Of a stretch of DNA of 24,924 nucleotides, positions 6,892-24,581 are shown piece by piece. Position numbers and translations under genes: made by a program. The notes below the pieces were generated by a model. That model saw nothing but the letters and a program-made list of their open reading frames with translations. It did not search any database and was not told the DNA's origin. Every line of letters begins with the position of its first letter. Positions within the stretch are counted from its first letter, which is position 1. Origin of the DNA: an uncultured bacterium (lineage in GTDB: Bacteria > Bacillota > Clostridia > Peptostreptococcales > Anaerovoracaceae); NCBI GenBank assembly GCA_905214225.1, contig CAJMLL010000034.1, positions 1 through 24,924 on the forward strand, in the 5' to 3' direction.

Positions 6892-6900
6892 GAGGAGAAT

Positions 6901-7674: not shown

Positions 7675-7680
7675 CAGAAG

Positions 7681-8865: not shown

Positions 8866-8942
8866 GAAAAACGCAGAAATGAAAACGCCAGAAAATCTGG
8901 AGAAAACTATAGAATCAGCAAGGGAAGAAGGGAGTACAATCC

Positions 8943-9680: not shown

Positions 9681-9686
9681 GGCGGA

Positions 9687-10511
9687 ATGAGAGTATTAAT
9701 TTTTGGCGGAACAACAGAGGGAAGAGCGCTGACGCAGGAGCTTGCGGAGCAGGGCTGCAGCGTCTTATACAGCGCGGCGACGGACTACGGCGCGGAAACG
9801 CTCGGGCAGATTCCCGGCGTGAAAGCGGTGTTCGGCATCCGGCCGGAAGAAGAGATCGAGGACATGCTGGACAGCGCAGATGTCTGCATCGACGCTACCC
9901 ATCCCTTCGCAGAGCATATCAGCGGAAGCATCCGGACCGCCTGCAGCAATAAAAAAGTAAAAGAATTCCGCTTCGTCAGGGAAGAAGCACCGATTCCAGA
10001 GACGGAGTTTCTGAAGAAGGTGTCGTCTGTCTCCGAAGTCTGCAGTTATCTTCAGCAGAAAGCGGGCAGCATCCTGCTGACGACTGGATCCAAGGATCTG
10101 AAGGCATATGCCGTTCTCGGACCGGAGCGGCTGTATCCGAGGGTTCTTCCGGCGGTGCGCTCGATTCAGCTCTGTGAAGAAGCGGGAATTCCGAGGAAAA
10201 ACATCATCGCCATGCAGGGGCCCTTTTCCACAGCGATGAACTGCTGCATGTTAAGAGACTATGATATCTCCTATATAGTCACCAAGGAAAGCGGGCGCCA
10301 GGGCGGACTGTTTCAGAAGATCGAAGCGGCAGAAGAATGCGGCGTGCAGCTGCTGATGATTCAGCGGCCGGAAGAGGTGATTCCGCCTTCCAGTGAAGAG
10401 GAAATCCTTTCCTGGATCCAGGAAAGACAAAATAAAGAAACAAGAGGGAAGCATCCGGGAAAACCGGAAAAGAAAGAAAACGAACAGCACGGAAAGGAGC
10501 AGAATGGATGA
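9687..10511 (+). CDS. cbiJ: Cobalt-precorrin-6A reductase CbiJ
   Basis: The 274 residues match CbiJ/CobK, the NAD(P)H-dependent reductase of cobalt-precorrin-6A. Diagnostic stretches are MRVLIFGGTTEGRALTQELA, ATHPFAEHISGS, LLTTGSKDLKAY, PRVLPAVRSI, IAMQGPFSTAMNCCML and YIVTKESGRQGG. The last ~30 residues form a charged, low-complexity tail (K, E, N and G rich) that the family does not require. The stop overlaps the start of cbiET by four bases (ATGA), so the two genes are translationally coupled. Confidence 0.94.
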   Translation: MRVLIFGGTTEGRALTQELAEQGCSVLYSAATDYGAETLGQIPGVKAVFGIRPEEEIEDMLDSADVCIDATHPFAEHISGSIRTACSNKKVKEFRFVREEAPIPETEFLKKVSSVSEVCSYLQQKAGSILLTTGSKDLKAYAVLGPERLYPRVLPAVRSIQLCEEAGIPRKNIIAMQGPFSTAMNCCMLRDYDISYIVTKESGRQGGLFQKIEAAEECGVQLLMIQRPEEVIPPSSEEEILSWIQERQNKETRGKHPGKPEKKENEQHGKEQNG

Positions 10512-11776
10512 AGGTATCCCTGATCGGACTTGGCGCCGGAATGAATACGGTAATTGCAGAAGCGCGTGAAGCGGTAGAAAATGCGGATATCCTCATCGGA
10601 GCACCGAGACTTCTGGAACTGGTCCGCAGCGCCTATCCGGAAAGCAGACAAGAATTCCGCCAGGAGATCTGGCCGGGAAGAATCGCGGATCTTCTGATGG
10701 AAAAGAAGGAAGAATGGGGAAAATGGAAGGTCGCCCTCCTGTTCAGCGGAGATACCGGATTTTACAGCGGAGCAGGTTCATTTTTAAGAGAATACCGGAA
10801 GCGGCTTCCGGAAAACATGGATCCGATGAGCCGGGAAGCAGAAGCCTTCAGCGGCTTTTCCCTTGAAGAATTTCCGGGAATTTCTTCGATTCAGATGCTT
10901 TCTTCCGCCATTGGAAAGCCATGGCAGGACTGGACCCTGGTTTCGGCGCACGGCAGGGACTGTGATCCTGCCGCGGCGGTCAGAAAAGGAAAAGATGCGT
11001 TTTTCCTGACCGGAGGCAGCACAGGAGCGCAGAAACTCTGTCAGGAACTCTGCCATGCCGGGCTTGAAGAACAAAAGGTCTGGATCGGAGAAAACTTAGG
11101 CATGAGCAGGCAGAAGATTACCGCCTGCAGCTGCAGGGAGGCGGCAGAAATCGCCTTTTCCTCCCTTGCTGTTGCGCTGGTGGAAGGTGTTCAGGATCTG
11201 TATCCTGCATGTGGAATTCCGGATGAAGCCTTTATCCGGGGGAAAGTTCCTATGACCAAGAAGATGATCCGGATGGCCCTTTCATCGCTTCTTCAGATTT
11301 CTCCGGAAGAAACGGTCTGGGACATTGGCGCCGGAACGGGAAGTGTTTCTGTGGAGCTGGCACGTCAGGCAGCCGGCGGGATCGTTTACGCCGTGGAGTG
11401 TAAGGAAGAAGCCTGCAGTCTGATTCAGCAGAACCGCAGAAAATTTCATCTGGGAAATCTAGAGATCATTAAAGGAGAGGCACCGGAAGCCCTGCAGAAT
11501 CTTCCAGAGCCGGACGTTGTGTTTATCGGCGGCTCCAATGGTCATATCGAAGAGGTTATCCGGGCGGCAGTGGAGAAGAATCCCCAGGTCCGGATCGCCT
11601 TTACCGGAATCGTGCTGGAGACGGTTCTTCAGGGAATGGATGCGCTGGAAAAGCTGGGAAAAGACCCGGATATCATGCAGATTTCTGTCAGCCGTTCGAA
11701 AACAGTCGGCAGCCGCGGCATTCACATGATGACGGCGGAAAACCCGATTTACATTGTCAGCGCAATAAAGGAGTAG
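10508..11776 (+). CDS. cbiET: Fused CbiE-CbiT: precorrin C5/C15 methyltransferase and C12 decarboxylase
   Basis: The 422 residues combine two enzymes that are separate in Salmonella, as in CobL. Residues 1-~215 are CbiE (KVSLIGLGAGMNTVIAEA, ILIGAPRLLE, LLFSGDTGFYSGA, LVSAHGRD). Residues ~225-422 are CbiT (RGKVPMTKKMIRMALSSLLQ, then the SAM loop WDIGAGTGSVSVELA, then PDVVFIGGSNG). CbiT methylates C15 and decarboxylates the C12 acetate. CbiE methylates C5. The start overlaps the cbiJ stop. The fusion is common and both domains look intact. Confidence 0.95.
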   Translation: MKVSLIGLGAGMNTVIAEAREAVENADILIGAPRLLELVRSAYPESRQEFRQEIWPGRIADLLMEKKEEWGKWKVALLFSGDTGFYSGAGSFLREYRKRLPENMDPMSREAEAFSGFSLEEFPGISSIQMLSSAIGKPWQDWTLVSAHGRDCDPAAAVRKGKDAFFLTGGSTGAQKLCQELCHAGLEEQKVWIGENLGMSRQKITACSCREAAEIAFSSLAVALVEGVQDLYPACGIPDEAFIRGKVPMTKKMIRMALSSLLQISPEETVWDIGAGTGSVSVELARQAAGGIVYAVECKEEACSLIQQNRRKFHLGNLEIIKGEAPEALQNLPEPDVVFIGGSNGHIEEVIRAAVEKNPQVRIAFTGIVLETVLQGMDALEKLGKDPDIMQISVSRSKTVGSRGIHMMTAENPIYIVSAIKE

Positions 11777-11779
11777 CGG

Positions 11780-13231
11780 ATGGAGAAAAAAATACAGGCC
11801 GCAGTCGCGGCGTCTTCTTCAAACTCGGGAAAGACGCTGATTACCTGCGGGCTTTTGGAAATTCTGAAGAGAAAGGGGCTGAATCCCTGCGCCTTCAAGA
11901 CTGGGCCGGACTACATCGATCCGATGTTTCACCGCAGCATTCTGAATGTGAGCAGCCACAATCTGGACCTGGTCATGTCGGATGAGGATTACGTGAAAAC
12001 GGCCTACAGAAGAGAGCTGGCAATGCACGGATCCGCGGTGATCGAGGGCGTGATGGGCATGTATGACGGGCTGTCCGGGAAGACGGATACCGGCAGCTGC
12101 TGGCATCTTGCTGATGTCGTGAACGTTCCGGTGCTGCTGGTTTTGGCCCCTGAAGGAAGCAGCCTGACCCTGGCGGCGGAAGTACAGGGCCTTCAGAATT
12201 TCCGGCAGGACAGCCATATCGCGGGGATTTTCCTGAACCGCTGCAAGCCCTCCTACGCGGCGCTGATGAAGACCATATTGGAGAAGGAAACGGGACTTCC
12301 GGTCATCGGCTGTCTTCCGGAGATTCCGGACGTGCGTGTAAAATCCAGGCATCTGGGGCTGTATCAGGCGGACGAGATCGAGGATCTGCAGAAGAACATC
12401 GGCATCGTCGCGGATGAAATGGAGAAGAATCTGGACTGGGATGCCTTCCAGAAGGCCTTCTCTGTACCGGTTCTGCAGGACAAAGCCTGCCCGGCCCAGG
12501 GAGACACAGAAAGCCTGGAAACTGCCGGCGGCCGTTCGTCTTTTCCGGCTTTTCCGCAGAGCCGGGCGCCGCGGCGTGCGGTCATTGCCATTGCCCGGGA
12601 CGAGGCCTTTTCCTTCTGCTACCGGGAAACGGAAGAAGAAATGGACCGTCAGGGCGGCTGCATCGTGTACTTCAGCCCGATTCACGAGCCGCGCATTCCG
12701 GAAGAGGCAGATGCTCTGTATCTTCCGGGAGGCTATCCGGAGCTTTACGCGAAGGAGCTGGCGGAAAACCAGAGTATGAGAGACAGCATCAGAAAGTCGG
12801 CGGAATCCGGCATGCCGGTGATCGCTGAGTGCGGAGGATTCCTCTACCTTCTGGATTCGATCTGCGATGAAGAGGGTCAGGAATTCCCGATGGCCGGCGT
12901 ATTTCCGGGCGGAAGCGGAAATTCCGGAAAGCTGGTCCGCTTCGGCTACGCAGAGATGACGGCAGAGGAAGACAGCCTTCTGATGAAAAAAGGCGAGTCC
13001 ATGTTTGTTCATGAATTCCATTACTGGGCTGCCGAAAAGGATGGAGAAGCTTTTCATTTGAAAAAAGCGATGAGCAGAAGAGAGTGGGACGAGGGATATG
13101 CGGGCCCGACGATGTATGCGGCATTTCCGCACCTTTATCTGGCCGCCTGTCCGGAGGCAGTCAGCCGCTATATTGCTTCCGCAGAACGCTGTCACAGGCA
13201 GAAGGAAGAGAAGAAAAAAGACAGCAGATAA
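11780..13231 (+). CDS. cbiA: Cobyrinic acid a,c-diamide synthase CbiA
   Basis: The 483-residue product amidates the a and c carboxylates of cobyrinate using glutamine and ATP. An N-terminal dethiobiotin-synthetase-like domain has the P-loop SSSNSGKT (12-19) and FKTGPDYIDPMFH. VIEGVMGMYDGLSG is the conserved metal/substrate segment. The C-terminal glutamine amidotransferase domain has LYLPGGYPELYAKEL, the nucleophile cysteine in AECGGFLYLL and the HEFHYW histidine. A linker of about 35 residues near 235-270 is variable. The start follows AAAGGAG, and cbiET ends 3 bases before it. Confidence 0.95.
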   Translation: MEKKIQAAVAASSSNSGKTLITCGLLEILKRKGLNPCAFKTGPDYIDPMFHRSILNVSSHNLDLVMSDEDYVKTAYRRELAMHGSAVIEGVMGMYDGLSGKTDTGSCWHLADVVNVPVLLVLAPEGSSLTLAAEVQGLQNFRQDSHIAGIFLNRCKPSYAALMKTILEKETGLPVIGCLPEIPDVRVKSRHLGLYQADEIEDLQKNIGIVADEMEKNLDWDAFQKAFSVPVLQDKACPAQGDTESLETAGGRSSFPAFPQSRAPRRAVIAIARDEAFSFCYRETEEEMDRQGGCIVYFSPIHEPRIPEEADALYLPGGYPELYAKELAENQSMRDSIRKSAESGMPVIAECGGFLYLLDSICDEEGQEFPMAGVFPGGSGNSGKLVRFGYAEMTAEEDSLLMKKGESMFVHEFHYWAAEKDGEAFHLKKAMSRREWDEGYAGPTMYAAFPHLYLAACPEAVSRYIASAERCHRQKEEKKKDSR

Positions 13232-13333
13232 GTCCGGGGCGGCAGAAGGAAAAGAGAACAGGATTTCCTGACGGCGGAAAACAGAGCCGCGCGGAGAAAA
13301 CCGGAAAAAGTACAGTAAGTGAGGAGCGTGCAG

Positions 13334-14332
13334 ATGAACCACTGGGTGATGTATTTTATAATAACGGAAGCGGCAGCATGCGCAGGAGCGCTGCTGGATC
13401 TGCTGCTGGCAGATCCATACCATTTTCCTCATCCGGTGGTGATTATCGGAAAGTGTATCTCACTGTTTGAGAAGTGTTTCCGGAAAATTTTTCCGAAAGG
13501 AAAGAAAGGAGAGCTGGCCGGAGGATTCTTTACTGCGATACTCACAATCCTTCTTACTTTTGCGGTTACCGCCTTTGTCTGCTGGGGAGCGCTCAGAATC
13601 CACCCGCTTCTGGGCTTTGCGGTGGAGACACTGTGGTGCTGGCAGGCACTGGCGATGAGAGGCCTTCAGAAAGAAGCCGTCAATGTATACCATCATCTTC
13701 CGCCGGAGGGAAGTCTTGAAGATGCGCAGAAGGCGGTCGGAAGAATTGTCGGAAGAGACACCTTTGTCCTGGATGAGACCGGCGTGATCAAGGCAGACTG
13801 CGAAACGGTGGCAGAGAATTTCTCTGACGGCGTGATCGCTCCGCTGTTCTATATGGCCATCGGCGGCGCTCCGCTGGCACTGACCTATAAAGCGGTGAAC
13901 ACCCTGGACAGCATGATCGGATACAGAAATGATAAATATCTGTATTTCGGAAGAACCGGAGCCAGGATCGACGATGTGTTCAATTACATTCCATCCAGAA
14001 TTTCGGCGCTCCTGTGGGCACTGGGCGCGGCAGTGACAGGAAATGACGGCAGGAACGCGCTGCGGATCTGGAGAAGGGACAGCCGGAAACACGCGAGTCC
14101 GAATTCCGCGCAGACAGAGTCGGCCTGCGCAGGTTCTCTTCATGTGCAGCTTGCGGGTCCTGCCCAGTATTTCGGCAAGATTTACGACAAGCCGGCAATC
14201 GGAGATTCTGACCGGCCGATCGAAAGAAACGATATTTTACGCTGCTGTCAGATGCTGGGCGCGTCTTCTGCGGCGGGGCTGTTCATATTCTTCAGCCTGC
14301 GGGCGCTGATTTTCTGGCTGATTCTGAGATAG
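13334..14332 (+). CDS. cbiB: Adenosylcobinamide-phosphate synthase CbiB
   Basis: The start is ATG 13334, which stands 7 bases after GAGGAG (13321-13326). An upstream in-frame GTG at 13319 overlaps the binding site and is rejected. The 332 residues form an integral membrane protein that joins the aminopropanol phosphate arm to adenosylcobyrate. Family motifs are LLLADPYHFPHPVVIIGK, GRDTFVLDETGVIKA, TVAENFSDGVIAPLFYMAIGG and MIGYRNDKYLYFGR. NYIPSRISALLWALGA and the C-terminal hydrophobic segment are also present. It uses the product made by the downstream CobD. Confidence 0.95.
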   Translation: MNHWVMYFIITEAAACAGALLDLLLADPYHFPHPVVIIGKCISLFEKCFRKIFPKGKKGELAGGFFTAILTILLTFAVTAFVCWGALRIHPLLGFAVETLWCWQALAMRGLQKEAVNVYHHLPPEGSLEDAQKAVGRIVGRDTFVLDETGVIKADCETVAENFSDGVIAPLFYMAIGGAPLALTYKAVNTLDSMIGYRNDKYLYFGRTGARIDDVFNYIPSRISALLWALGAAVTGNDGRNALRIWRRDSRKHASPNSAQTESACAGSLHVQLAGPAQYFGKIYDKPAIGDSDRPIERNDILRCCQMLGASSAAGLFIFFSLRALIFWLILR

Positions 14333-14478
14333 TCACGGCCCGGGCAGATTAAGGCTGAACAGAAACAGGACAGGATGCGGGAAATCCGGAACAGGCTGTT
14401 GAAGAAAACCGCAGCAGAATCTCTGCGGAATCTGCTGAAAATATGCGGAAAATGAAGAAGTAATTTGGAGAGGGAACA

Positions 14479-15603
14479 TTGAGTTTTATAACAAACAGTG
14501 AACATGGCGGAGATATTTATGGTTTTGAAAAGCAGTACGGCAGGAAGCCTCTGGATTTTTCCGTGAATGTCAATCCGGAAGGAACGCCGGAAGGGGTTCA
14601 GAAAGCCGCAGCAGCTACAGTGTCTGAAGCTTCCGAGTATCCGGACCCGGAGCAGAGAGATCTGGTAAATGCCCTGGCAGAGAAGAATCAGCTGGAAACA
14701 TGGCAGATCCTTCCGGGAGCAGGCGCCTCGGACATCATTTACCGGATTGTCTTCAGCAGGAGGCCGTCCAGGGCGGTGGTCACGGCACCGACCTTCAGTG
14801 AATACGAGCGCGCACTGAAGGCGGCAGGATCACAGGTCAGCCATTTTCTCCTTCGGGAAGAAGACGAATTTCTTCTGAATAACCGGATCGACGAACTTCT
14901 GGAACTGGCGGAAAAAGATCCGGAATTTCCGGAAAGCGGGCGCGCGGAGATGATTTTTCTCTGTGAACCGAACAATCCGACAGGAAGGACAACGGATAAG
15001 GCTTCACTTCTCCGGCTTCTAGCGGCATGTCAGAAAAAAAAGATCACGCTTGTCGTTGATGAATCTTTTCTCTGGCTTCTCGATGATCCGGAGAAACACA
15101 CGCTGCTTGCAGAAGGCGGGAAGTATGGCCAGCTCATCCTTCTGCGCTCATTTACCAAGATCTTTTCCATGCCGGGAATCCGCCTTGGCTACGGAATCTT
15201 TTTCCGGAAGGACTGGAGAGAGCGGGCAGAATTATGCGGCCCTTCCTGGGCAGTTTCCACAGGAGCGCAGGCAGCTGGCCTTGCCGCACTGAGGGAATCG
15301 GAATACATAGAAAGATACCGGCAGCAGAATACAGAAGAACGGGCGTATCTGAAAGAACAGCTAGAATCCCTTGAAGGAATACCTTTTGTCAGCAGCGGAC
15401 AGGCCAACTACCTTCTGATCCGTGCGGATATCAGGCTTTCTGAACCGCTGGCGGAAAAAGGCATTCTGGTCCGCGACTGCAGCAACTATCATGGCCTGGA
15501 TGAACACTGGATCCGCGTCTGCGTCAGAAGCCGTCAGGATAATCAGATGCTGATTCAGGCGGTCAGAGAATGCCTTCAGGAAGGCGGAATCCGTCAGCGC
15601 TGA
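14479..15603 (+). CDS. cobD: L-threonine-O-3-phosphate decarboxylase CobD
   Basis: The 374-residue PLP enzyme of the HisC-like aminotransferase fold makes (R)-1-amino-2-propanol phosphate for CbiB. The start is an unusual TTG (14479) behind GGAGAGGG. It gives the family N-terminus SEHGGDIYGF, then LDFSVNVNPEGTP. CEPNNPTGRTTD, VVDESFLWL and the PLP-binding lysine in LLRSFTKIFSMPGIRLGYG follow. A histidinol-phosphate aminotransferase is the main alternative, but the HGGDIY start and position between cbiB and cbiP favour CobD. The 146 bases before it hold no convincing gene, only a short AGCAGA/TCTGCT stem. Confidence 0.93.
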   Translation: MSFITNSEHGGDIYGFEKQYGRKPLDFSVNVNPEGTPEGVQKAAAATVSEASEYPDPEQRDLVNALAEKNQLETWQILPGAGASDIIYRIVFSRRPSRAVVTAPTFSEYERALKAAGSQVSHFLLREEDEFLLNNRIDELLELAEKDPEFPESGRAEMIFLCEPNNPTGRTTDKASLLRLLAACQKKKITLVVDESFLWLLDDPEKHTLLAEGGKYGQLILLRSFTKIFSMPGIRLGYGIFFRKDWRERAELCGPSWAVSTGAQAAGLAALRESEYIERYRQQNTEERAYLKEQLESLEGIPFVSSGQANYLLIRADIRLSEPLAEKGILVRDCSNYHGLDEHWIRVCVRSRQDNQMLIQAVRECLQEGGIRQR

Positions 15604-15660
15604 CCGGGGATCTTCCGGGAAAAGAGAGAAGCTTGTTACTATTCTCAGAAAGGAGTAAAC

Positions 15661-17178
15661 GTGACAGACCATAGGATTACAGGAAATATTATGGTGCAGG
15701 GAACCATGTCAGGGGCCGGAAAGAGCCTCTTGTGCGGTGCCCTCTGCCGCATCTTCCGCCAGGACGGATACCGGGCCGTTCCTTTTAAAAGTCAGAATAT
15801 GGCGCTGAACAGCTACATTACTTCTGACGGGCTGGAAATGGGCCGGGCCCAGGTCATGCAGGCCGAGGCCGCAGGGGTCGAGCCGGACGTGCGGATGAAC
15901 CCGATTCTGCTGAAACCGTCGAGCGACGTCGGAAGTCAGGTGATCGTAAACGGAAGAGTGCTGGGTGATATGGAAGCCCGCGAGTATTTCAAGTATAAGG
16001 AGAGGCTGATTCCGGATATTATGGAGGCCTACCGGTCACTGGCAGAGGAGAACGATATCGTTGTGATCGAGGGTGCGGGAAGTCCGGCCGAGATCAATCT
16101 CAAGCAGCATGATATTGTGAATATGGGTCTTGCGGAGATGGTGGACGCGCCGGTTCTGCTGGCCGGGGACATCGACCGGGGCGGGGTGTTCGCCCAGCTT
16201 TACGGAACTGCGGCCCTGCTGGAGGAAAACGAACGCCGCCGCATTAAGGGCATGCTGATCAATAAATTCCGGGGCGATAAGGAAATTCTGATGCCGGGAG
16301 TCCGGATGATTGAGGAAAAGACCGGAATCCCTGTGCTCGGTATTATTCCTTACCTTCACGTCGATATCGATGAAGAGGATTCCCTGGCGCCGCGGCTTTC
16401 TCATTCTGAGATAAATGAAGATTCGCATGCGCTTCTGGATATTGCCGTTGTCCGCCTTCCGCGGATTTCCAACTTCACGGATTTTGCGCCGCTTGAGGCC
16501 GATCCGCTGATGTCCGTCCGCTATATTTCCCGTCCTGAAGAGTTCGGCGATCCGGATCTTCTGATTCTTCCGGGGACAAAAAGCACCCTGGATGACCTGG
16601 TCTGGACAAGGGAGTCGGGCCTGGAAATGATGATCCGCAAGTTCGCGGCCGCAGGCGGAGCCGTCCTGGGCATCTGCGGAGGATACCAGATGCTGGGAGA
16701 ACAACTGGACAACCCGGAACATACAGAAGGAAAGCGGGATTCCATGAAGGGCTTATCCCTGCTTCCTGTGCAGACCGTGTTTACCGGGGAAAAGACGAGA
16801 ACCCGCGTGCACGGAGAAATCGTCTCAGGACCGCTTGCAGGAGCCTCGGTGGATGCCTATGAAATTCATATGGGAAAGACCGAAGTTTCCGGTGATTCCT
16901 TCAGCCGGCTGGAAAATGAGACTGCCGGAGGAGAAAAAAAAGAAGACGGATGCAGCTGCGGAAATGTATTTGGAACTTATCTGCATGGTCTGTTTGATTC
17001 CGGTGAAGCCGCGGAAAAGCTCGGCCGCTGGCTGTGCAGCCGGAAGGAAATTTCCTATACCGGCGGAAAACGCCTGAGCTGGAAAGAGTATGAAAACCAG
17101 CAGTATGACAAACTCGCAGAAAAGGTCCGGGAATCCCTGGATATGGATGCGGTTTACGCGATGACGCTGAAAAAATAA
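15661..17178 (+). CDS. cbiP: Cobyric acid synthase CbiP
   Basis: The start is GTG 15661 after AAAGGAG. The 505-residue enzyme adds four amides (b, d, e and g) to adenosylcobyrinate a,c-diamide. The N-terminal domain has [14 protein letters not shown] (P-loop), [11 protein letters not shown] and [12 protein letters not shown]. The C-terminal amidotransferase domain has [14 protein letters not shown], the nucleophile cysteine in [20 protein letters not shown] and [10 protein letters not shown]. Length is typical. It lies 57 bases after cobD and 18 bases before cbiC. Confidence 0.96.
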
Positions 17179-17196
17179 AGGAAAGAAGGAGAATTT

Positions 17197-17910
17197 ATGG
17201 GACTTCAGCATGTGAAACCGGGAGATATTGAAAAGACCAGCATGAGGACAATCCGGAAGGAGCTGGAAGAAAAAGGATTCACACTTCCGGAAAATGAGGC
17301 AGAACGTGCCGTCCTGCTGCGGGCGATTCACACCAGTGCGGATTTTGATTACGCGGAAAGCTTAAGGTTCGTGGAAAATGGACCTGAGGCGGGCGTCCGT
17401 TATTTCCTCCGGGGTCTTCAGGCAGGAGAAGAGGCAGCAGCGCCGGCAGAGGAAGAAAAGATTGTCATTACGGACACCAACATGGCACTTTCCGGAATCA
17501 GTAAAAGAGCGCTGGAAAAACTTTCCGGCCGTGCCGTCTGCTATATGGCAGATCCTGAAATTGCAAAGAGGGCAAAAGAAGAAGGCAGCACCAGGGCGAG
17601 AGCCTCCATGGAATATGCCGGAAAAGTTCATCCGCATGGGGTGTTTGCATCCGGAAACGCGCCGACTGCTCTGATTTCACTTACGGAGCAGATTGAAGAG
17701 GGACTCCGGCCTTCCCTTGTTGTCGGCGTTCCGGTGGGCTTTGTCAATGTGGTGGAAAGCAAGGAGATGCTGATGGAAGCCTGTGAAAAACATCATGTTC
17801 CGGCGATCATTGCCATGGGCAGAAAGGGCGGAAGCAATGTTGCCGCCGCAATCATCAATGCGCTGCTGTACACGGCGGCGGGCTGGCTGAATCCGGAAAA
17901 CAGGAAGTAA
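17197..17910 (+). CDS. cbiC: Cobalt-precorrin-8 methylmutase CbiC
   Basis: The 237-residue CbiC/CobH moves the C11 methyl group to C12, giving cobyrinate. The conserved segment is AIHTSADFDYAESL, with the catalytic histidine. ITDTNMALSGISKRAL, FASGNAPTALISL, SLVVGVPVGFVNVVESKE and AIIAMGRKGGSNVAAAIINA follow. An N-terminal helical extension of about 35 residues precedes the domain. It closes the biosynthetic unit. I see no convincing terminator before the promoter and riboswitch that start 26 bases later, so some read-through is possible. Confidence 0.95.
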   Translation: MGLQHVKPGDIEKTSMRTIRKELEEKGFTLPENEAERAVLLRAIHTSADFDYAESLRFVENGPEAGVRYFLRGLQAGEEAAAPAEEEKIVITDTNMALSGISKRALEKLSGRAVCYMADPEIAKRAKEEGSTRARASMEYAGKVHPHGVFASGNAPTALISLTEQIEEGLRPSLVVGVPVGFVNVVESKEMLMEACEKHHVPAIIAMGRKGGSNVAAAIINALLYTAAGWLNPENRK

Positions 17911-17935: not shown

Positions 17936-17964
17936 TTGAAAGACCTGTGAACGCATGTTATAAT
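17936..17964 (+). promoter_or_regulatory. Near-consensus promoter of the riboswitch operon
   Basis: TTGAAA (17936-17941), a 17-base spacer and a perfect TATAAT (17959-17964) with an extended TG at 17956-17957 make this the strongest promoter in the window. It places transcription start near 17971, a few bases before the first aptamer helix. Confidence 0.85.
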
Positions 17965-17974
17965 ATATTTTACG

Positions 17975-18153
17975 TTCAGGTGATTGCTGTCTATAGATGA
18001 GCAGGCAGCGGTTGAAAAGGGAAACAGGTGGAAGTCCTGTACGAACTTCGTCACTGTAAACAGATTGCGGAAGCTGTAATGCCACTGCGCAGGCTCTCAC
18101 TGCGCGGGAAGGCGGCGGACGCGGAAATCTGCAAGTCAGGAGACCTGCCTGAA
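17975..18153 (+). ncRNA. Cobalamin riboswitch aptamer
   Basis: The closing helix pairs TTCAGG (17975-17980) with CCTGAA (18148-18153). Inside are the conserved boxes: AAAAGGGAA with the following GGTGGAAGTCC, GCCACTG (18081-18087), GGGAAGGC, and the B12 box AGTCAGGAGACCTGCC (18134-18149). Order and spacing fit the classical cobalamin aptamer. It lies upstream of the exported chelatase gene, and by family rule ligand binding lowers expression. None is found ahead of the biosynthetic operon. Confidence 0.93.
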
Positions 18154-18165
18154 TAAGATCGCAGT

Positions 18166-18268
18166 GGAAAGAAGGCTTTTTCTTTCCGGCCACGAGTAAC
18201 TGGCATATGCGGTAGAAAGGATTCTATCCGTATGCCTTCTACCATTATTTCCATGCAGAAGGTTTTTT
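18166..18268 (+). promoter_or_regulatory. Riboswitch expression platform with competing hairpins
   Basis: GGAAAGAA (18166-18173) pairs with TTCTTTCC (18180-18187). Further on, GGTAGAAAGG (18211-18220) can pair with CCTTCTACC (18235-18243), one bulge. Alternatively CCTTCT (18235-18240) can pair with AGAAGG (18257-18262), which runs directly into six T (18263-18268). The two structures share CCTTCT and exclude each other. This is the layout of an antiterminator and a terminator, supporting transcriptional control. Confidence 0.7.
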
Positions 18269-18316
18269 AATGAGAGCGGTTTCTTCAGCAATGGAAACCG
18301 GGAAAGGGAGAAATTC

Positions 18317-19681
18317 ATGAAAAAGCAATCCTTGAAGAAATTTATGACGCTGGCTCTTTCTGCAGCCCTGGCATCCAGCATGCTGCTTGCTGTTCCGGCG
18401 TTTGCAGATACGACGCAGAGCACGTCTGCAAACGCAGGCACGACAGCTGCAACAGACACAGCAGCGCAGCAGACGACAGAAAAGGTCACGATTACCAAGG
18501 ACAACGTCAAGGAAATCACCGGAAAGATTACCCAGATGACACTGGAGCAGGGAAAGGCATTCGTCGATGAAAACGACTGCCCGCTTCTGGCTGCCGGACT
18601 GATTGGCGAGATTTACATTCACCCGAAGTCAACACCGGCAGAACAGGAGGCTCAGACAGAGATGATAGCAAAGGTCGCAAAGGTTGCGAAGTATGCGTAT
18701 AACAAGCTCTCTGCCGCAGATAAGAAGGCCGTTCCGGAGATTCCGGACGGATATGAGTATCCGGGTGCAGGCGGGGCAGATTATTTCTCCACAGCAGCAC
18801 CGATCGGAAGCGCGGCAAAAGACAAGGCATGGACAAAGAAAGTCTGCGCAGCACCGACAAAGAAGTCCGAAATTCTGGTCGTAAGCTTTGGTACAAGCTA
18901 TAACACAAGCCGTTACCAGACCATCGGCGGAATCGAGAAAGCAATCAATAATAAGTATGGCAAGAAATATTCTGTAAGAAGAGCATTTACTTCCCAGGTC
19001 ATCATCAACCACATCCTGGCAAGAGATGAGTACCGAATTGACACGGTAAGAGAAGCCATGGAAAAAGCCAACAAGGCCGGTGTCAAGACCCTGATCGTTC
19101 AGCCGACCACCCTGATGAGCGGTGAAGAGTATGACCTGCTGAAGGAGAATGTCAAGGCGAACAAGGGCAGCATCAAGACGATCAAGATCGCAAGCCCGCT
19201 TCTGAAGTCCGATAAGGATAGAAAGACTGTCGCAAAGGCTCTGGCTGCTTCCGCAGCAAAGAAGGCCGGCGTTAAGACAGAAACTCTGAAGAAATCCGGC
19301 TCCAAGACCGCATTCGTATTCATCGGACATGGAACCTCCCATGCAAACCGCATTACTTATACAAGAATGCAGAACGATTACACAAAGCTGGGCTATAAGA
19401 ATGTATTCGTTGGAACCGTTGAAGGAAAGCCAGCAGCAACATCCTGCACATCCCTGATCAAGAAGCTGAAGAAGAAGGGATATAAGAAGGTTGTCATCCG
19501 CGGAATGATGGTTGTTGCAGGCGACCACGCCAATAACGACATCGCCGGAAACGATGCAGATGCCTGGAAGACACAGCTGAAGAAGGCCGGCTTCAAGGTC
19601 AGCGCACAGATCGAGGGACTTGGTTCTCTGAAGACCGTTCAGAACATTTACGTTCAGCACACTGCTGCTATGATGAAATAA
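18317..19681 (+). CDS. cbiK: Exported CbiK-type cobaltochelatase
   Basis: The 454-residue product starts with a Sec signal peptide (KKFMTLALSAALAS core, cleavage after AFA at residue 30). A Thr/Ala/Gln-rich linker and a helical region of unknown role (about 45-170) follow. Residues 182-454 form the CbiK domain: SEILVVSFGTSYNTSR, LIVQPTTLMSGEEYD, IGHGTSHA (H338), GTVEGKP (E369) and VVAGDHANND (H404). These histidines match the metal-binding pair of Salmonella CbiK, so the site looks intact. CbiK inserts cobalt into sirohydrochlorin in the cytoplasm, but here the enzyme should be outside the membrane. There is no anchor motif. The start follows AAGGGAG. It is the first gene under the cobalamin riboswitch. 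Confidence 0.93.
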   Translation: MKKQSLKKFMTLALSAALASSMLLAVPAFADTTQSTSANAGTTAATDTAAQQTTEKVTITKDNVKEITGKITQMTLEQGKAFVDENDCPLLAAGLIGEIYIHPKSTPAEQEAQTEMIAKVAKVAKYAYNKLSAADKKAVPEIPDGYEYPGAGGADYFSTAAPIGSAAKDKAWTKKVCAAPTKKSEILVVSFGTSYNTSRYQTIGGIEKAINNKYGKKYSVRRAFTSQVIINHILARDEYRIDTVREAMEKANKAGVKTLIVQPTTLMSGEEYDLLKENVKANKGSIKTIKIASPLLKSDKDRKTVAKALAASAAKKAGVKTETLKKSGSKTAFVFIGHGTSHANRITYTRMQNDYTKLGYKNVFVGTVEGKPAATSCTSLIKKLKKKGYKKVVIRGMMVVAGDHANNDIAGNDADAWKTQLKKAGFKVSAQIEGLGSLKTVQNIYVQHTAAMMK

Positions 19682-19742
19682 CTGACCGCTTTCAGTACCG
19701 CTTCAGGCGGCAGACTGATTGGACAAAATATAATGGGCAAGG

Positions 19743-19776
19743 CAGAGATCCGCTGCAATGATGCGGCGGATCTCTG
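19743..19776 (+). other. Stem-loop between cbiK and the NEAT-like/FnIII gene
   Basis: A perfect 11-bp stem, CAGAGATCCGC (19743-19753) with GCGGATCTCTG (19766-19776), closes a 12-base loop. No T-run follows, so it is not a standard terminator. A lone TATAAT (19729-19734) lies just upstream without a -35. The hairpin could stabilise or process the polycistronic mRNA, or sit at the 5' end of a secondary transcript. Confidence 0.6.
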
Positions 19777-19810
19777 TATATGTGAAAATATGAAAAGAAG
19801 AGGTATTACA

Positions 19811-20605
19811 ATGAAAAAATGGATGAAAATCGGCGCCTTTGCATGCGCCGGCGTAATGGCAATGAGCATGTCCGCATTTGCAGATACAACAGCGGATTCA
19901 TCCAATACGGCAGACGCTGCGAAGATTCCGGATGGTGTTTACGCCCTTCCGGTTACTTCGGACTATTTTATGCTCAGCATCAGCAAGCTGGATAACAGCC
20001 AGGCATTTCTGACGGTAAAGAACGGTGTAGAGACTCTGACCTTCCGTCTGAGCGGACAGGGCTATGATTACCTGTATTTTGGTAATTCAACAGCTGCAGA
20101 AGATCCTGCACATCAGATCAAGACACAGGTAAAGCGCGGCGACTCTCATTACTTCACGCTGCCGCTTACGAAGGACGGTTATGCAGTGAAAGTCGGAACT
20201 AACACACTGGCTCTTGCCGGACACAGTGCAAGGGAGAATCGCTGGTTCCCGACTCATACCTGGACCATGACCTATACCGGCAATGAGCAGAACCTGAAAA
20301 CCGCCAAAGTTTCTGCCCCGGCAAAAACAGCAATTACGAAGGTTAAAGCAAAGAAAAAAGCTGCAGCGGTCAGCTGGAAACAGATCACAAAGAATGGAAG
20401 CGGCTACCAGCTTCAGTATTCCACCAATAAGTCGATGAAAAAGGCTTCTAAAACGAATCTCTATTACAACGATGAGACTTCCAAGACCGTCAAGAAGCTG
20501 AAGAGCGGCAAGACCTATTACTTCCGTGTCCGCACAGAGCATTTCAACGGCTATAAGTCCGCATACTCCGGATGGAGCAAAGTAAAGAGCGTCAAGGTAA
20601 AGTAA
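19811..20605 (+). CDS. Secreted NEAT-like plus fibronectin III protein
   Basis: The start is ATG 19811 behind AGAAGAGG. The upstream in-frame ATG at 19733 is rejected because it lies before the hairpin and lacks a binding site. The 264 residues have a signal peptide (cleavage after AFA at 24). A beta-rich module (about 38-157) contains DGVYALPVTSDYFMLSI, LTVKNGVETLTFRLSGQGYD and ALAGHSARENRW. It closely resembles the second module of the 842-residue neighbour and, in general build, NEAT/Shp-type haem-binding domains. The C-terminal FnIII domain (168-264) is recognisable by ITKVKAKKKAAAVSWK and LKSGKTYYFRVRT. No sortase motif or membrane anchor is present. By context it probably binds a tetrapyrrole at the cell surface, which is an inference. 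Confidence 0.75.
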   Translation: MKKWMKIGAFACAGVMAMSMSAFADTTADSSNTADAAKIPDGVYALPVTSDYFMLSISKLDNSQAFLTVKNGVETLTFRLSGQGYDYLYFGNSTAAEDPAHQIKTQVKRGDSHYFTLPLTKDGYAVKVGTNTLALAGHSARENRWFPTHTWTMTYTGNEQNLKTAKVSAPAKTAITKVKAKKKAAAVSWKQITKNGSGYQLQYSTNKSMKKASKTNLYYNDETSKTVKKLKSGKTYYFRVRTEHFNGYKSAYSGWSKVKSVKVK

Positions 20606-20662
20606 TTCATGGATAAACAGGAAATCCTTAATGGGTCTTCTGATTATGTATGATGTGTTATT

Positions 20663-20729
20663 CTGTGCATGCAGCACAGATTCTGCTGAAATCTCTCCGT
20701 TTTCTCTGAATACAAGGATGGGGAGATTT
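20663..20729 (+). other. Two stem-loops in the intergenic leader of the large surface gene
   Basis: CTGTGC (20663-20668) pairs perfectly with GCACAG (20674-20679) around a 5-base loop. AAATCTCTCC (20689-20698) pairs with GGGGAGATTT (20720-20729) with one wobble. Neither is followed by a usable T-run. They fill most of the 161-base gap between two exported-protein genes and may affect mRNA stability or translation. Confidence 0.5.
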
Positions 20730-20766
20730 TCGCATATCTCAAAGGCATAGAAATGAGGGAAAAAGA

Positions 20767-23295
20767 ATGCGCAATTTGCAGCCGAAATTGAAAAGACTGC
20801 TGACAGCAGCTCTCATCCTTGCGGTTGCCGTCTGCTTTACTTTTTGTCCTGAGCTCTGGAGCAGCGCGGAAAGAACGGCGCATGCCGAAACAGAGACGGA
20901 GTCAGAAAGCAAAATCGCAGACGGAACTTACGTACCGTCCGGCTTCAGTTTTACCGGAGGAACCGGTAAGGTAAAGATTACCTGCAGCTGGGTGAAGATT
21001 ACCGACGGAAAGGCGGAAGCAGAAATTGTCTTTCACAGCTCCTATTACAACAGCATGACAATCGGAGATAAAACCTACACGTCGAAAGTCAGTGAGCGCG
21101 CGGGAACAGCTTCATTTACGGTGCCGGTGAACCTGAATGCCGCGACGGTTGTGCATGCCGTTACCACCAGAATGTCAGAAGCGCACAGCATTGAATACAC
21201 CCTGCATGTGGGCCTGAAGGGGAAGCTGAAAACCTACAATAGCAAGAGCTCGAACTCCGGCAAAAAGAATTCATCGTCCGATTCCGGAAAAAAGAACTCC
21301 GGAAACTTCGATTATGACAAGGCGATCAAGAAGACTTCCTCTGCAAAAGACAAGAAGCGGGAAAAATCCTATTTCAAAAATGGAAAACTGAAGGACGGCA
21401 CTTACCGGGTGCAGGCCTGGACCGACCACTATATGTTCAACATCCAGCCCTATAAAGGCGGAACTTACGCGATTCTGAAGGTGAAAAACGGGAAGATGAA
21501 GGCGCAGCTGACGCTGACCGGCCAGGGATACGATTACGTCTATCCAGGTACCAAAGCCCAGGCAGAGAAGGCGCCGAAGTCGAAGTGGTGTCACTACAAG
21601 GAGCACAACAACTACTATTCCTACATCTTCCCTGTGAAAAAGCTGAATAAGAAATTTGCTCTGGCGGGGCATTCCAAGAGAGAAAACCGCTGGTATGCCC
21701 ATACCGCAAAAATTTACACGGCTGGAATCCGGAAGGTTGCTTCCTCTGCGACGAACATTCCGAAAGGCCGGAACACGACCAAGAGAAGAAGCAGCACAAC
21801 GGGAACAACTACACAGAAAGTCTTCCGCAACAATCATAAGAAGGACCGCGTGTCCAAGTCCACGAAGGATACTTCTGGCAGCACCTCCAAAGTCAACAGC
21901 CATGCCGGGCTCAGGGACGGCGTCTACACACCGAGTACCTTCAGCTGGTCCGGCGGAAGCGGAAGACTGAAGGGAATTTCCTGTAACAAGATCACTGTGA
22001 CCAATGGAAAGGCCTACGCGACAATCGTCTTCCAGAGTCCGCACTACGACTACCTCCGGGCAGACGGCAGGACCTTTACCGGAAAGCAGGGCGCCGACAC
22101 GTCGACTTTTGTCATTCCAGTAAAACTGAACGCGAATAACACCGTCGTCGGCCGGACGACCGTCATGTCCCAGCCCCACTGGATTACCTATACACTCTAT
22201 ATCGGTCTGACCGGAAAGAGCGGGTCTTCCTCGTCTTCATCTTCACAGCAGCTGAAGGGAGGACAAAAGAAACTGTCCAAGAAGGCACCGGTCATTGCCG
22301 GCCTGAAAAGCAAATCGGAAATCAAGGCGGAAAATGCGAAACTCTTCCGGATTTTCCAGTATAACCACGGGGTCGTTCTGGTGCAGGTGGATATGGAAAA
22401 AAATACCAGCACCAGAAAGGCAGTCGGCTATAAAGAGAAAAAGACAAAGGTCACCGAAGACCGGGATGAGATCGAGCAGAAAGAAGGAAAAACCCAGAGC
22501 GAGCGAACGCAGGAACTGTATAAGGGAAATGTCATCAATTACCTGATCGTTCCGAAGGGCGCTTCGATTCCGGCGGGACTGGACAAGGCCTGTGTGATCA
22601 TCCGCACGCCGAAGAAGGGCTATACGGCTTCTCAGAGTGCGCTGAGATTTGCAGGAATCCTGAATCAGTCCGGGAAATTTACTTCGCTGGGATTCAGCAG
22701 ACAGAAAGCATACAGCAGTCTGTCTGCAAGCCAGGAGCAGGAGATGCGTGTACGTGTGAAAAACGGAAAAATCCAGTTTCCGGGGAAATGGCAGAATGTG
22801 AATTACCGTGACCTGGTGGAGAGCCAGGCGGACCTGTGCATCCTTCCTTCCGGAGCACTTCCTCATGAGATTAAGAACCTGAATGCCGCTGCATCGGGCA
22901 GCGGGAGCAGCTCATCCGCATCGGCATCTTCCATCGCAAAAGAACATCCGGTCAAACATTTCTTTGCGTCGATTATCGGAATTCTTCCGGAAAAAATGCT
23001 CGTGAAGAGCCTGCGTTCATTTGTAGAGACCTACGCGCCGTCTTCTCATGCGGCATCCGGAAAAGGCAGCAGGCAGATGACAGAAAAAGAAAAGGCGCAG
23101 AAACAGTACCGGCAGCTGGATAGGACCATTCAGCTCTTTACCGCGATGCAGACGCCGGTTTTGATTGATCGCTCTGCAAGAGAGAAAACAAAACTTGCAA
23201 AGGCGGAGTGGATCAAAGTCTACGGAGCGATTTTTGGATGTGAGGACGATGCGCAGAGCTGGTACAGCAGTTATGAAAAAGCCCAGCAGGAGTAG
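20767..23295 (+). CDS. 842-residue exported protein: three NEAT-like modules plus half a BtuF-type binding protein
   Basis: The start is ATG 20767 after GAGGGA. A signal peptide is cleaved near AHA (residue 40). Module A1 (about 52-150) and module A2 (about 383-481) are related to each other: DGTYVPSGFSFTGG against DGVYTPSTFSWSGG, FHSSYYNSM against FQSPHYDYL, and MSEAHSIEYTLHVGL against MSQPHWITYTLYIGL. Module B (about 209-317) matches the upstream FnIII protein's module (LTGQGYDY, ALAGHSKRENRWY). Ser/Lys/Thr-rich linkers separate them. Residues ~506-842 resemble the N-terminal lobe and bridging helix of the downstream lipoprotein (PVLIDRS, EWIKVYG) and then end. No lipobox or sortase motif was found. 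I infer extracellular tetrapyrrole capture and relay. The exact family name is uncertain. Confidence 0.8.
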   Translation: MRNLQPKLKRLLTAALILAVAVCFTFCPELWSSAERTAHAETETESESKIADGTYVPSGFSFTGGTGKVKITCSWVKITDGKAEAEIVFHSSYYNSMTIGDKTYTSKVSERAGTASFTVPVNLNAATVVHAVTTRMSEAHSIEYTLHVGLKGKLKTYNSKSSNSGKKNSSSDSGKKNSGNFDYDKAIKKTSSAKDKKREKSYFKNGKLKDGTYRVQAWTDHYMFNIQPYKGGTYAILKVKNGKMKAQLTLTGQGYDYVYPGTKAQAEKAPKSKWCHYKEHNNYYSYIFPVKKLNKKFALAGHSKRENRWYAHTAKIYTAGIRKVASSATNIPKGRNTTKRRSSTTGTTTQKVFRNNHKKDRVSKSTKDTSGSTSKVNSHAGLRDGVYTPSTFSWSGGSGRLKGISCNKITVTNGKAYATIVFQSPHYDYLRADGRTFTGKQGADTSTFVIPVKLNANNTVVGRTTVMSQPHWITYTLYIGLTGKSGSSSSSSSQQLKGGQKKLSKKAPVIAGLKSKSEIKAENAKLFRIFQYNHGVVLVQVDMEKNTSTRKAVGYKEKKTKVTEDRDEIEQKEGKTQSERTQELYKGNVINYLIVPKGASIPAGLDKACVIIRTPKKGYTASQSALRFAGILNQSGKFTSLGFSRQKAYSSLSASQEQEMRVRVKNGKIQFPGKWQNVNYRDLVESQADLCILPSGALPHEIKNLNAAASGSGSSSSASASSIAKEHPVKHFFASIIGILPEKMLVKSLRSFVETYAPSSHAASGKGSRQMTEKEKAQKQYRQLDRTIQLFTAMQTPVLIDRSAREKTKLAKAEWIKVYGAIFGCEDDAQSWYSSYEKAQQE

Positions 23296-23321
23296 GCGGG
23301 GCTGTCCCGGTTGTATGAAGA

Positions 23322-23350
23322 GGCGGAATGGAAACTTCTTCCTTTCCGCC
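23322..23350 (+). other. Stem-loop between the large surface gene and the lipoprotein gene
   Basis: GGCGGAA (23322-23328) pairs with TTCCGCC (23344-23350). After one T-T mismatch, GGAA (23330-23333) pairs with TTCC (23339-23342) around a 5-base loop. No T-run follows. The hairpin buries the in-frame ATG at 23328, which argues for the later start at 23388. Confidence 0.65.
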
Positions 23351-23387
23351 AGCTAAGGAAAAAAGCAGAAAGAAAAGTGATAACAGA

Positions 23388-24581
23388 ATGATGAAGAGCA
23401 GTAAATTTATGAGATTCAAGAAAGCAGGCGTGCTTCTTCTGGCCGTGATCATGGCGGCAGTCATGCTGACAGGATGCGGCGGTTCTTCAGGATCAGGCAG
23501 CAGCTCCGGTTCTTCTGGTTCGGCGTCCTCTTCTTCCGGACATCCGGAAATTTCCGGTCTGACCTATCAGTCAAAAATCAAACTGGACTACGCGAAACAG
23601 TTCAGCATCTACCGCTATAAAGGTGGTTACAGTGTGATTGACATCAAGCAGGAAGGGAAATTCCTGGTCATCCCGCAGGGAAAGAAGAAGCCGGAGAATC
23701 TTCCAAAGAAGATTACCGTCATCCGTCAGCCGCTGAAAAACGTCTATCTGGCGGCAACCGCCGTCATGTCCCTGTGCTGTGACATCCACGGAGACAGTGC
23801 CATCACCATGAGTTCCATAAGGGCCTCAGAATGGTCCTTCCAGGAACCGAAAAAGCGCATGGAAAATAAAGAGATGGTGTTTGCCGGGAAGTACAGCGAG
23901 CCGGATTATGAGCTTCTGGTTAAGAAAAAATGCGACCTGGCTCTGGAATCGACGATGATTTATCATACGCCGGAAGTCAAGGAAATGATTGAAAAACTCC
24001 ATATTCCAGTCCTGATCGACCGCTCCAGCTATGAAGATACGCCGATGGGTCGCATGGAATGGATCAAGATGTACGGTGTGCTTTTTAACAGAGAGTCCGA
24101 AGCCCAGAAGTTTTTCAAGGCACAGGAGGCCAAGACGAAGAATCTGAAGAAAGGTTCTCATAAGACGGTGGCCTTCTTCTATATCTCAACCGATGGAAAA
24201 GCGGTTGTAAGACGTTCGGATGACTATGTTCCGGCGATGATCAAGATGGCCGGCGGCACGTATGCCTATGAATCTGTCGGAAAGAACAGTTCCAGTATTT
24301 CCGTTCCGATGAACATGGAGAAATTCTACGAACTGACGAAAAATGCCGATATCATCGTCTATAACGGCAGCATCGACAGCAGCGTGACGAGCATGTCCGC
24401 TCTGAAATCCAAGGATCCGGTCATTAAGAAACTGAAGGCAGTAAAGAATGGAAACTGCTGGCTGGCGAAGTCTGCGATGTATCAGCGTCCGGATCAGGCG
24501 GGAGATATCGTCGTAGATTTCAATACCCTGATTCAGGAGAAGAATCCGACAGGAATGCGATTCCTGACGAAACTGAAGTAA
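23388..24581 (+). CDS. BtuF/FepB-type substrate-binding lipoprotein
   Basis: The start is ATG 23388, with 23391 or 23409 possible since the binding site is weak. The 397 residues begin with a lipoprotein signal: a basic region, LLLAVIMAAVM, then lipobox LTGC with C30. A Ser/Gly-rich tether follows. The remainder is a two-lobed type III binding protein of metal-chelate/B12 importers, including YSVIDI, ITVIRQPLKNVYLAATAV and a long interdomain helix near IPVLIDRS and MEWIKMYG. The C-lobe has VAFFYIS, VPAMIKMAGGTYAYE and ADIIVYNGS. It is the only complete candidate partner in the window for the permease and ATPase at 3437-5714. It is the last gene of the riboswitch operon. Ligand is inferred as a corrinoid or other tetrapyrrole. 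Confidence 0.85.
   Translation: MMKSSKFMRFKKAGVLLLAVIMAAVMLTGCGGSSGSGSSSGSSGSASSSSGHPEISGLTYQSKIKLDYAKQFSIYRYKGGYSVIDIKQEGKFLVIPQGKKKPENLPKKITVIRQPLKNVYLAATAVMSLCCDIHGDSAITMSSIRASEWSFQEPKKRMENKEMVFAGKYSEPDYELLVKKKCDLALESTMIYHTPEVKEMIEKLHIPVLIDRSSYEDTPMGRMEWIKMYGVLFNRESEAQKFFKAQEAKTKNLKKGSHKTVAFFYISTDGKAVVRRSDDYVPAMIKMAGGTYAYESVGKNSSSISVPMNMEKFYELTKNADIIVYNGSIDSSVTSMSALKSKDPVIKKLKAVKNGNCWLAKSAMYQRPDQAGDIVVDFNTLIQEKNPTGMRFLTKLK

Follow-up and report, generated by a model that had tools for sequence, protein, structure and literature searches.

Why should a cobalamin riboswitch govern the export of a chelatase together with NEAT-type proteins and a binding lipoprotein? The question is raised by a four-gene locus in the DNA shown above, a stretch of 24,924 nucleotides from an uncultured bacterium of the Anaerovoracaceae (contig CAJMLL010000034.1 of assembly GCA_905214225.1; hereafter the window), in which a promoter-like site and a cobalamin aptamer are followed by genes for a CbiK-family chelatase (gene 1), two NEAT-domain proteins (genes 2 and 3) and a lipoprotein (gene 4). 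All of these elements lie where the preliminary description of this DNA had placed them. That description proposed that the products act together at the cell surface, binding haem, a corrinoid or a metal-free tetrapyrrole, possibly altering its metal and delivering it to the importer. We find a locus that is real, conserved and more specific than this: comparative genomics supports the scheme of capture and delivery, with its chemistry a prediction, and narrows the three ligand classes to the sirohydrochlorin stage. Our preferred reading, held at about even confidence, is riboswitch-controlled salvage, in which a scavenged B12 precursor would be loaded with cobalt outside the cell and the product imported.

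Gene 1 had been described as a CbiK chelatase with an export signal, and its product does carry a PF06180 domain behind a signal peptide (221.4 bits against a Pfam cut-off of 26.2; E = 1.7e-65). Its score against the NCBIfam equivalog SiroCoChCbiK is 171.2 bits, short of the cut-off of 400, and we therefore assign it to the CbiK family and do not equate it with the classical cytosolic equivalog. Gene 1 retains equivalents of Salmonella Glu89, presumably an active-site residue, and of His145 and His207, as do 47 of 47 CbiK domains. PMC7689651 identifies both histidines as active-site residues of Salmonella CbiK (this and the other PMC citations below draw on excerpts). We predict from sequence that the exported CbiK acts as a sirohydrochlorin cobaltochelatase. 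The top PDB sequence match of gene 1 is FetB (9b86; E = 1.5e-33), which we take to be IhtB of Porphyromonas gingivalis under another name.

In a phylogenetic tree, the 31 exported CbiK domains group as a single clade, apart from the 16 cytosolic domains (support 100/98). Two fragments, the exported L054 and the cytosolic L065, were left out of the tree and counted for genomes G024 and G009, respectively (G and L numbers denote genomes and loci); L043_2542, whose CbiK hit is split, was counted as cytosolic. FetB and the Desulfovibrio vulgaris enzyme (2xvx) pair outside the Clostridial exported clade, on long branches and with a midpoint root, which suggests that export may have arisen more than once; under the same reservations, the tree gives no support to IhtB/FetB as a member of that clade. 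Two exported proteins contain two CbiK domains each (L012, 4635-9422; L059, 3962-6766), the latter with a NEAT domain in between, and an apparent tandem CbiK, seen as two matches in a single frame of ~580-645 residues, occurs in G041, G062, G077, G084, G095, G098, G108, G113 and G117, all from the order-wide control described below.

The locus was traced through gene 3, of which 333 scored candidates are homologues. When one genome was scanned per species, 31 gene 3 loci emerged, reduced to 30 by removal of L003, an inverted duplicate on the same contig as L002 (JALEQY010000108.1, an inverted duplicate of itself and probably an assembly artefact). The 30 genomes are recorded as Eubacteriaceae, Lachnospiraceae, other Clostridia or just Bacillota. 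Iterated profiles place gene 4 immediately 3' of gene 3 in 27 of the 28 loci where the contig allows it (the exception is L023), and a BtuC-like permease comes after the binding protein in 21 of the 27 loci that could be assessed (not in L001, L005, L011, L016, L022 or L025). At this place L011 (13811-15247), L016 (13389-14753) and L025 (7192-8589) have a gene of 454-478 residues from an unassigned family. A cobalamin riboswitch heads the gene 3 operon in 22 of 24 assessable loci, with none at this position in L017 and L030; assessment was precluded at the contig starts of L009, L020, L021, L022, L028 and L029.

CbiK itself is present in 29 of the 30 genomes by whole-genome search, and neighbourhood analysis, relying on a signal peptide or lipobox, identified an exported form in 27, in one case as a fragment (in L018 and L056 the first possible start precedes the riboswitch, and a later start with a lipobox was used). 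In 9 of 30 loci the exported gene shares an operon with the large NEAT gene; in the others it is located separately, usually preceded by a cobalamin riboswitch of its own, and a shared operon is rejected as the rule. The preliminary description would have been refuted had the parts not been conserved together in relatives. They are so conserved, with the qualification that this holds for genomes, 27 of 30 having an exported CbiK, and much less for operons.

Counting that of the window, 29 exported CbiK proteins are complete. A cobalamin riboswitch lies immediately upstream of 27 of them (it is absent in L041, and the contig breaks off at L044), and 27 have a NEAT domain within the protein or in the next gene (the exceptions are L057, at a contig edge, and L033, which is followed by a second riboswitch). 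No riboswitch was found within 500 nt upstream of cytosolic CbiK in the 9 of 16 neighbourhoods scanned. The NEAT pairing would go unexplained if the exported CbiK were a surface cobalt-binding supplier without tetrapyrrole chemistry, as would the missing cytosolic chelatase described below; the retained metal ligands agree with such a role, which we regard as extremely improbable. The riboswitch, and a linkage to cbi rather than iron genes, argue against metal exchange or removal, by which the exported CbiK would strip iron or another metal from siroheme or a related metallo-tetrapyrrole before uptake, giving sirohydrochlorin or iron. CbiK-type enzymes do accept several metals, and IhtB of P. 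gingivalis is thought to remove iron from haem (PMC10913741), but cobalt would still have to be inserted somewhere, and we judge this explanation quite unlikely.

Gene order provides a further line of evidence. In L006, L007 and L008 one riboswitch is followed by exported CbiK, NEAT, gene 3, binding protein, BtuC, BtuD, cbiD and cbiL, and the run continues with cbiF, cbiG, cbiH, cbiJ and cbiET at gaps of -50 to +92 nt (CbiL was confirmed by NCBIfam in L006 and L007); this order agrees with external loading. L048 has a compact arrangement of riboswitch, CbiK lipoprotein, NEAT protein, binding protein, permease and ATPase. In eight genomes where the exported CbiK gene stands apart, cbiL lies ~1 kb from it, co-directionally in six (G012, G013, G014, G017, G019 and G030) and divergently in G010 and G015. 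Since the substrate of CbiL is the product of CbiK, this proximity supports the cobalt-loading reading. Back-to-back cobalamin riboswitches over divergent genes were also seen, with exported CbiK on one side and cbiL on the other in L034 (6227-6673) and L039 (5361-5807), and with a gene of 437-455 residues and unassigned family on the other side in L007 (7229-7756) and L002 (3635-4147 and 7132-7644).

We then asked what the carriers can make for themselves. The 30 genomes were searched for hemB, hemC, SUMT, SirC, cbiD, cbiL, CbiX and CbiK, with SirC counted at E < 1e-20 and SUMT and CbiL at their curated cut-offs. Eleven genomes, hereafter hem-less, have no hemB, hemC, SUMT or SirC (G002, G003, G005, G006, G007, G008, G011, G018, G020, G027 and G030); cbiD is kept in all 11 and cbiL in 10, and CbiL reaches its cut-off in 26 of the 30. 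An exported CbiK occurs in 10 hem-less genomes and is the sole cobaltochelatase found in nine, G030 having both an exported and a cytosolic CbiK and G008, where the contig is cut, no CbiK that we could find. The cytosolic CbiK of G030 lies beside its own ABC ATPase and BtuC-like permease (L062, 3398-6106). SUMT-positive genomes have an exported CbiK in 17 of 18 cases and a cytosolic one in 15 of 18, as against 1 of 11 for cytosolic CbiK in the hem-less set (Fisher p = 2.6e-4, uncorrected for kinship). A substitute inside the cell in the form of CbiX was rejected, as CbiX matches in the 30 genomes coincide with the places of CbiK and none lies apart from them. Two of the hem-less genomes, those of Hornefia butyriciproducens (G003) and Aminicella lysinilytica (G005), come from isolates, which speaks against assembly gaps. 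With no known route to sirohydrochlorin, the pathway from CbiL onward kept and the sole chelatase extracellular, external sirohydrochlorin that is loaded outside the cell and imported appears to be the best explanation.

It is here that the uptake of finished corrinoids has to be weighed. Under this alternative the NEAT proteins and gene 4 would take cobamides or cobinamide for the BtuCD-type transporter, in the manner of BtuG and BtuF, and the exported CbiK would be a corrinoid-binding protein or a minor accessory. The riboswitch and the BtuC/BtuD-like transporter are what one would expect of such a system, as is a class III binding protein with BtuF among its Foldseek matches. Left unexplained are an exported chelatase with intact catalytic residues, its replacement of cytosolic CbiK in hem-less genomes and the position of cbiL beside it, and we consider corrinoid uptake unlikely, though less so than the other alternatives.

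NB and FN3 profile matches support the earlier designation of gene 2 as a NEAT-like/FnIII protein, and gene 3, described as a multi-module NEAT-like protein fused to half a binding protein, proves to consist of three NEAT-type domains, then the N-lobe and interlobe helix of a class III binding protein, with nothing beyond; this C-terminal part is homologous to the gene 4 family. The window's NEAT sequence scores 21.7 bits against PF05031 (E = 2.9e-4), under the cut-off of 32.8, and the family matches at E ≤ 1 in 13 of 40 relatives. Searched against PDB sequences, the gene 3 profile returned low-complexity and chance matches alone, and the fold was therefore modelled; the structure model and a fold search revealed the NEAT beta-sandwich. 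Gene 4, which has no match among PDB sequences at E ≤ 0.01, encodes a full binding lipoprotein of class III fold. Siderophore, haem and B12 binders all match this fold, so that the ligand class is undecidable from it: the 'BtuF-type lipoprotein' of the preliminary description stands as to fold, with B12 as one of the candidate ligands. The NEAT fold and a weak match of gene 4 to IsdE (30.7 bits against a cut-off of 298.65) are what Isd-like haem acquisition would predict, with NEAT domains handing haem to an IsdE-like protein; the cobalamin riboswitch, the cbi linkage, the BtuCD-like transporter and a chelatase of the corrin pathway make it very unlikely.

NEAT proteins of other sizes also occur. 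Giant forms of 1642-2060 residues lie directly 3' of a cobalamin riboswitch in L024 (2341-8274), L030 (17367-22292) and L031 (1161-7343), and choline-binding repeats at the end of that in L024 suggest attachment to the cell wall. A second type, with NB-NA architecture and ~370-440 residues, adjoins the cytosolic CbiK gene in eight loci (Table 1).

Several observations weigh against external loading. Most of the 30 genomes are metagenome-assembled, with gaps possible, and hem genes cluster (for example on contig 61 of G001), so that a single gap can remove several; the absence of the early pathway covers hemB, hemC, SUMT and SirC, as hemA, hemL and hemD were not searched. G001, G004 and G025 possess the early pathway and SirC, yet have exported CbiK alone, a pattern for which SirC inserting cobalt, or an intermediate leaving the cell, may account; the gene 3 of G001 is the closest to that of the window. 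The fold determines the ligand neither for gene 4 nor for the NEAT domains. In a wider control of 198 genomes from the order of G005, full-length gene 3 occurs in 6 of 29 cbiD-positive, hemB-negative genomes against 5 of 114 cbiD-positive, hemB-positive ones (p = 0.009), and with hand-chosen partial NEAT/binding-protein matches included the counts become 14 of 29 and 10 of 114 (p = 5e-6), both p values uncorrected for kinship. The first counts reject a strict tie of the system to hem loss, and the link between gene 3 and hem loss is a tendency; the 23 of 29 genomes without full-length gene 3 indicate that most hem-less genomes manage otherwise. Of the six hemB-negative carriers of full-length gene 3 in the control, G003, G005, G006 and G007 have a CbiK match, and G008, with its cut contig, and G204 have none.

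The preferred reading of extracellular cobalt loading builds on the observed parts with their conservation, catalytic residues and riboswitch linkage, and on the early pathway and cytosolic chelatase missing in relatives. Cobalt is needed at the sirohydrochlorin stage of anaerobic corrin synthesis, and CbiL uses the cobalt product (PMC8123684). We infer ligand, catalysis, hand-off and import as follows. At low cobamide the riboswitch would permit expression. Surface NEAT domains would capture a metal-free uroporphyrinoid lost by other microbes, most likely sirohydrochlorin (factor II), into which the exported CbiK would insert Co(II). The binding lipoprotein would receive cobalt-sirohydrochlorin from the gene 3 fusion, whose N-lobe copy may dock on the same permease, and a BtuCD-type transporter would import the compound for cytosolic CbiL to begin corrin synthesis. 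For the window itself this salvage role is carried over from its relatives by analogy.

A broader proposal, which we advance tentatively and hold at somewhat below even confidence, is that cobalt insertion, a step of B12 synthesis assigned to the cytosol, is extracellular in a wide group of Clostridia, and that hem-less members live on sirohydrochlorin lost from neighbouring cells, load it with cobalt at their surface and take up the cobalt-sirohydrochlorin, so that two species would build B12 between them by way of a common extracellular intermediate. The intermediate may even exit and return to the same cell in G001, G004 and G025. If the functional reading is proven, this would be a new kind of system and could explain how some gut and rumen bacteria use the second half of the B12 pathway without the first. 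A core step of B12 synthesis would move outside the cell, sirohydrochlorin would become a shared nutrient in gut and rumen, NEAT domains would gain a new class of ligand, and CbiK-like 'haem' proteins of other anaerobes would merit re-examination.

The features of the window are collected in Table 1. The RF00174 match spans the whole model (positions 1-189 of 189) and far exceeds the gathering score of 31.5. Downstream of it, the segment 18195-18272 folds at -22.2 kcal/mol (z = -3.05); the overlap of hairpin and terminator fits ordinary attenuation, the terminator arm being a reading by eye that a terminator scan with a loop limit of 8 did not flag. Upstream of the riboswitch operon stands a run of corrin genes headed by the permease and ATPase; NCBIfam confirmed cbiF, cbiH and cbiET, and the other names rest on recognition of the translations. 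Among the window's open reading frames (ORFs), mostly named in this way, neither cbiL nor a cytosolic chelatase was seen. The gene 5' of the permease (2529-3305) encodes a protein of 258 residues that has a hydrophobic stretch at its N terminus and matches nothing in NCBIfam at 1e-10.

Table 1. Positions of features in the window and, in the last eight lines, of second-type NEAT proteins in related loci.
Feature	Position	Strand	Basis
BtuC-like permease, probable importer channel	3437..4552	+	best NCBIfam match BtuC, 1.7e-61, under curated cut-off
ABC ATPase, permease partner, BtuD-like	4506..5714	+	best NCBIfam match 'corrinoid ABC transporter ATPase', 1.9e-65, under curated cut-off
Anaerobic corrin genes cbiD, cbiF, cbiG, cbiH, cbiJ, cbiET, cbiA, cbiB, cobD, cbiP, cbiC	5728..17910	+	ORFs
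Sigma-70-type promoter-like site, TTGAAA-17-TATAAT	17936..17964	+	consensus match alone, 11/12 bases
Cobalamin riboswitch aptamer	17961..18166	+	RF00174, 103.5 bits, E 3.2e-25
Probable expression platform: strong hairpin overlapping one arm of a terminator-like stem with T run	18201..18268	+	
Gene 1, exported CbiK chelatase	18317..19681	+	signal peptide, ~150-residue linker region, CbiK domain from residue 180
Gene 2, exported NEAT (NB type) and FnIII protein	19811..20605	+	profiles NB 9e-25, FN3 8e-29; fn3 Pfam 3e-6
Gene 3, exported NEAT-NEAT-NEAT (NA, NB, NA) protein with half binding protein	20767..23295	+	domain profiles, model, fold search, gene 4 family homology
Gene 4, class III substrate-binding lipoprotein	23328..24581	+	
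NB-NA NEAT beside cytosolic CbiK, L034	1835-2953		
NB-NA NEAT beside cytosolic CbiK, L035	15495-16655		
NB-NA NEAT beside cytosolic CbiK, L036	15283-16464		
NB-NA NEAT beside cytosolic CbiK, L038	1411-2565		
NB-NA NEAT beside cytosolic CbiK, L040	3609-4724		
NB-NA NEAT beside cytosolic CbiK, L043	1043-2170		
NB-NA NEAT beside cytosolic CbiK, L046	541-1860		
NB-NA NEAT beside cytosolic CbiK, L049	3305-4549		

How does the system compare with those already known? The families of its parts are known, and the Iht system already provides a case of an exported CbiK-like protein next to an importer. In the open-licence literature that we searched, there is no description of the parts being used together, with cobalt inserted outside the cell to supply an importer and the second half of B12 synthesis. 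That literature, in which absence is weak evidence, yielded nothing on a NEAT domain with a cobalamin riboswitch, or on precorrin-2 or sirohydrochlorin uptake, transport or salvage or extracellular cobalt insertion. Like BtuFCD, the system has a BtuC/BtuD-like transporter, a class III binding lipoprotein and a cobalamin riboswitch, and it differs in its exported chelatase, its NEAT modules and a ligand that is probably a precursor. It shares with the NEAT haem relays (Isd, IsdX, Hal, Shp) an exported NEAT fold that supplies a class III binding protein and its ABC importer; unlike them it has cobalamin riboswitch control, a chelatase, half a binding protein fused to NEAT and a sequence under the Pfam NEAT cut-off. 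The D. vulgaris CbiK, reportedly exported from the cytosol to the periplasm (Lobo, in 2008, is said to have described this), resembles gene 1 in that respect and falls outside the Clostridial exported clade.

In the literature searched, the source of the precursor is an open question for precorrin-2-type salvagers, and Roper et al. are said to have raised the same puzzle for P. gingivalis in 2000. Tetrapyrrole precursor salvagers were defined by Shelton et al. as lacking early tetrapyrrole steps and keeping the corrin pathway; they are little explored, with 5-aminolevulinate dependence verified in three species (PMC6461909), and precorrin-2 salvagers are put at 0.6% (PMC8123684). The hem-less 11 of our 30 genomes show this pattern as far as hemB, hemC, SUMT and SirC are concerned. 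The excerpts of Shelton et al. give the category and name no importer or chelatase for it; the present locus offers a concrete machine, with genes, a riboswitch and cultured carriers.

The Iht system of P. gingivalis, an organism said to lack precorrin-2 synthesis (PMC6461909), comprises the TonB receptor IhtA, the CbiK-like lipoprotein IhtB, the binding protein IhtC, the permease IhtD and the ATPase IhtE (PMC10913741), and has been interpreted as haem or iron uptake (PMC10913741, PMC6460266). In both systems an exported CbiK-like protein, in Iht a lipoprotein, adjoins a binding protein and ABC importer; exported CbiK-like protein, binding protein, permease and ATPase are all present by component type in the window and contiguous in L006, L007, L008 and L048. 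A TonB-dependent receptor is not expected in carriers of Gram-positive type, where no search for one was made. Unlike the Clostridial loci, Iht is Gram-negative, lacks NEAT domains and is read as haem or iron uptake. Should B12 indeed be built by two species through an extracellular intermediate, Iht would, by analogy, be an independent second case.
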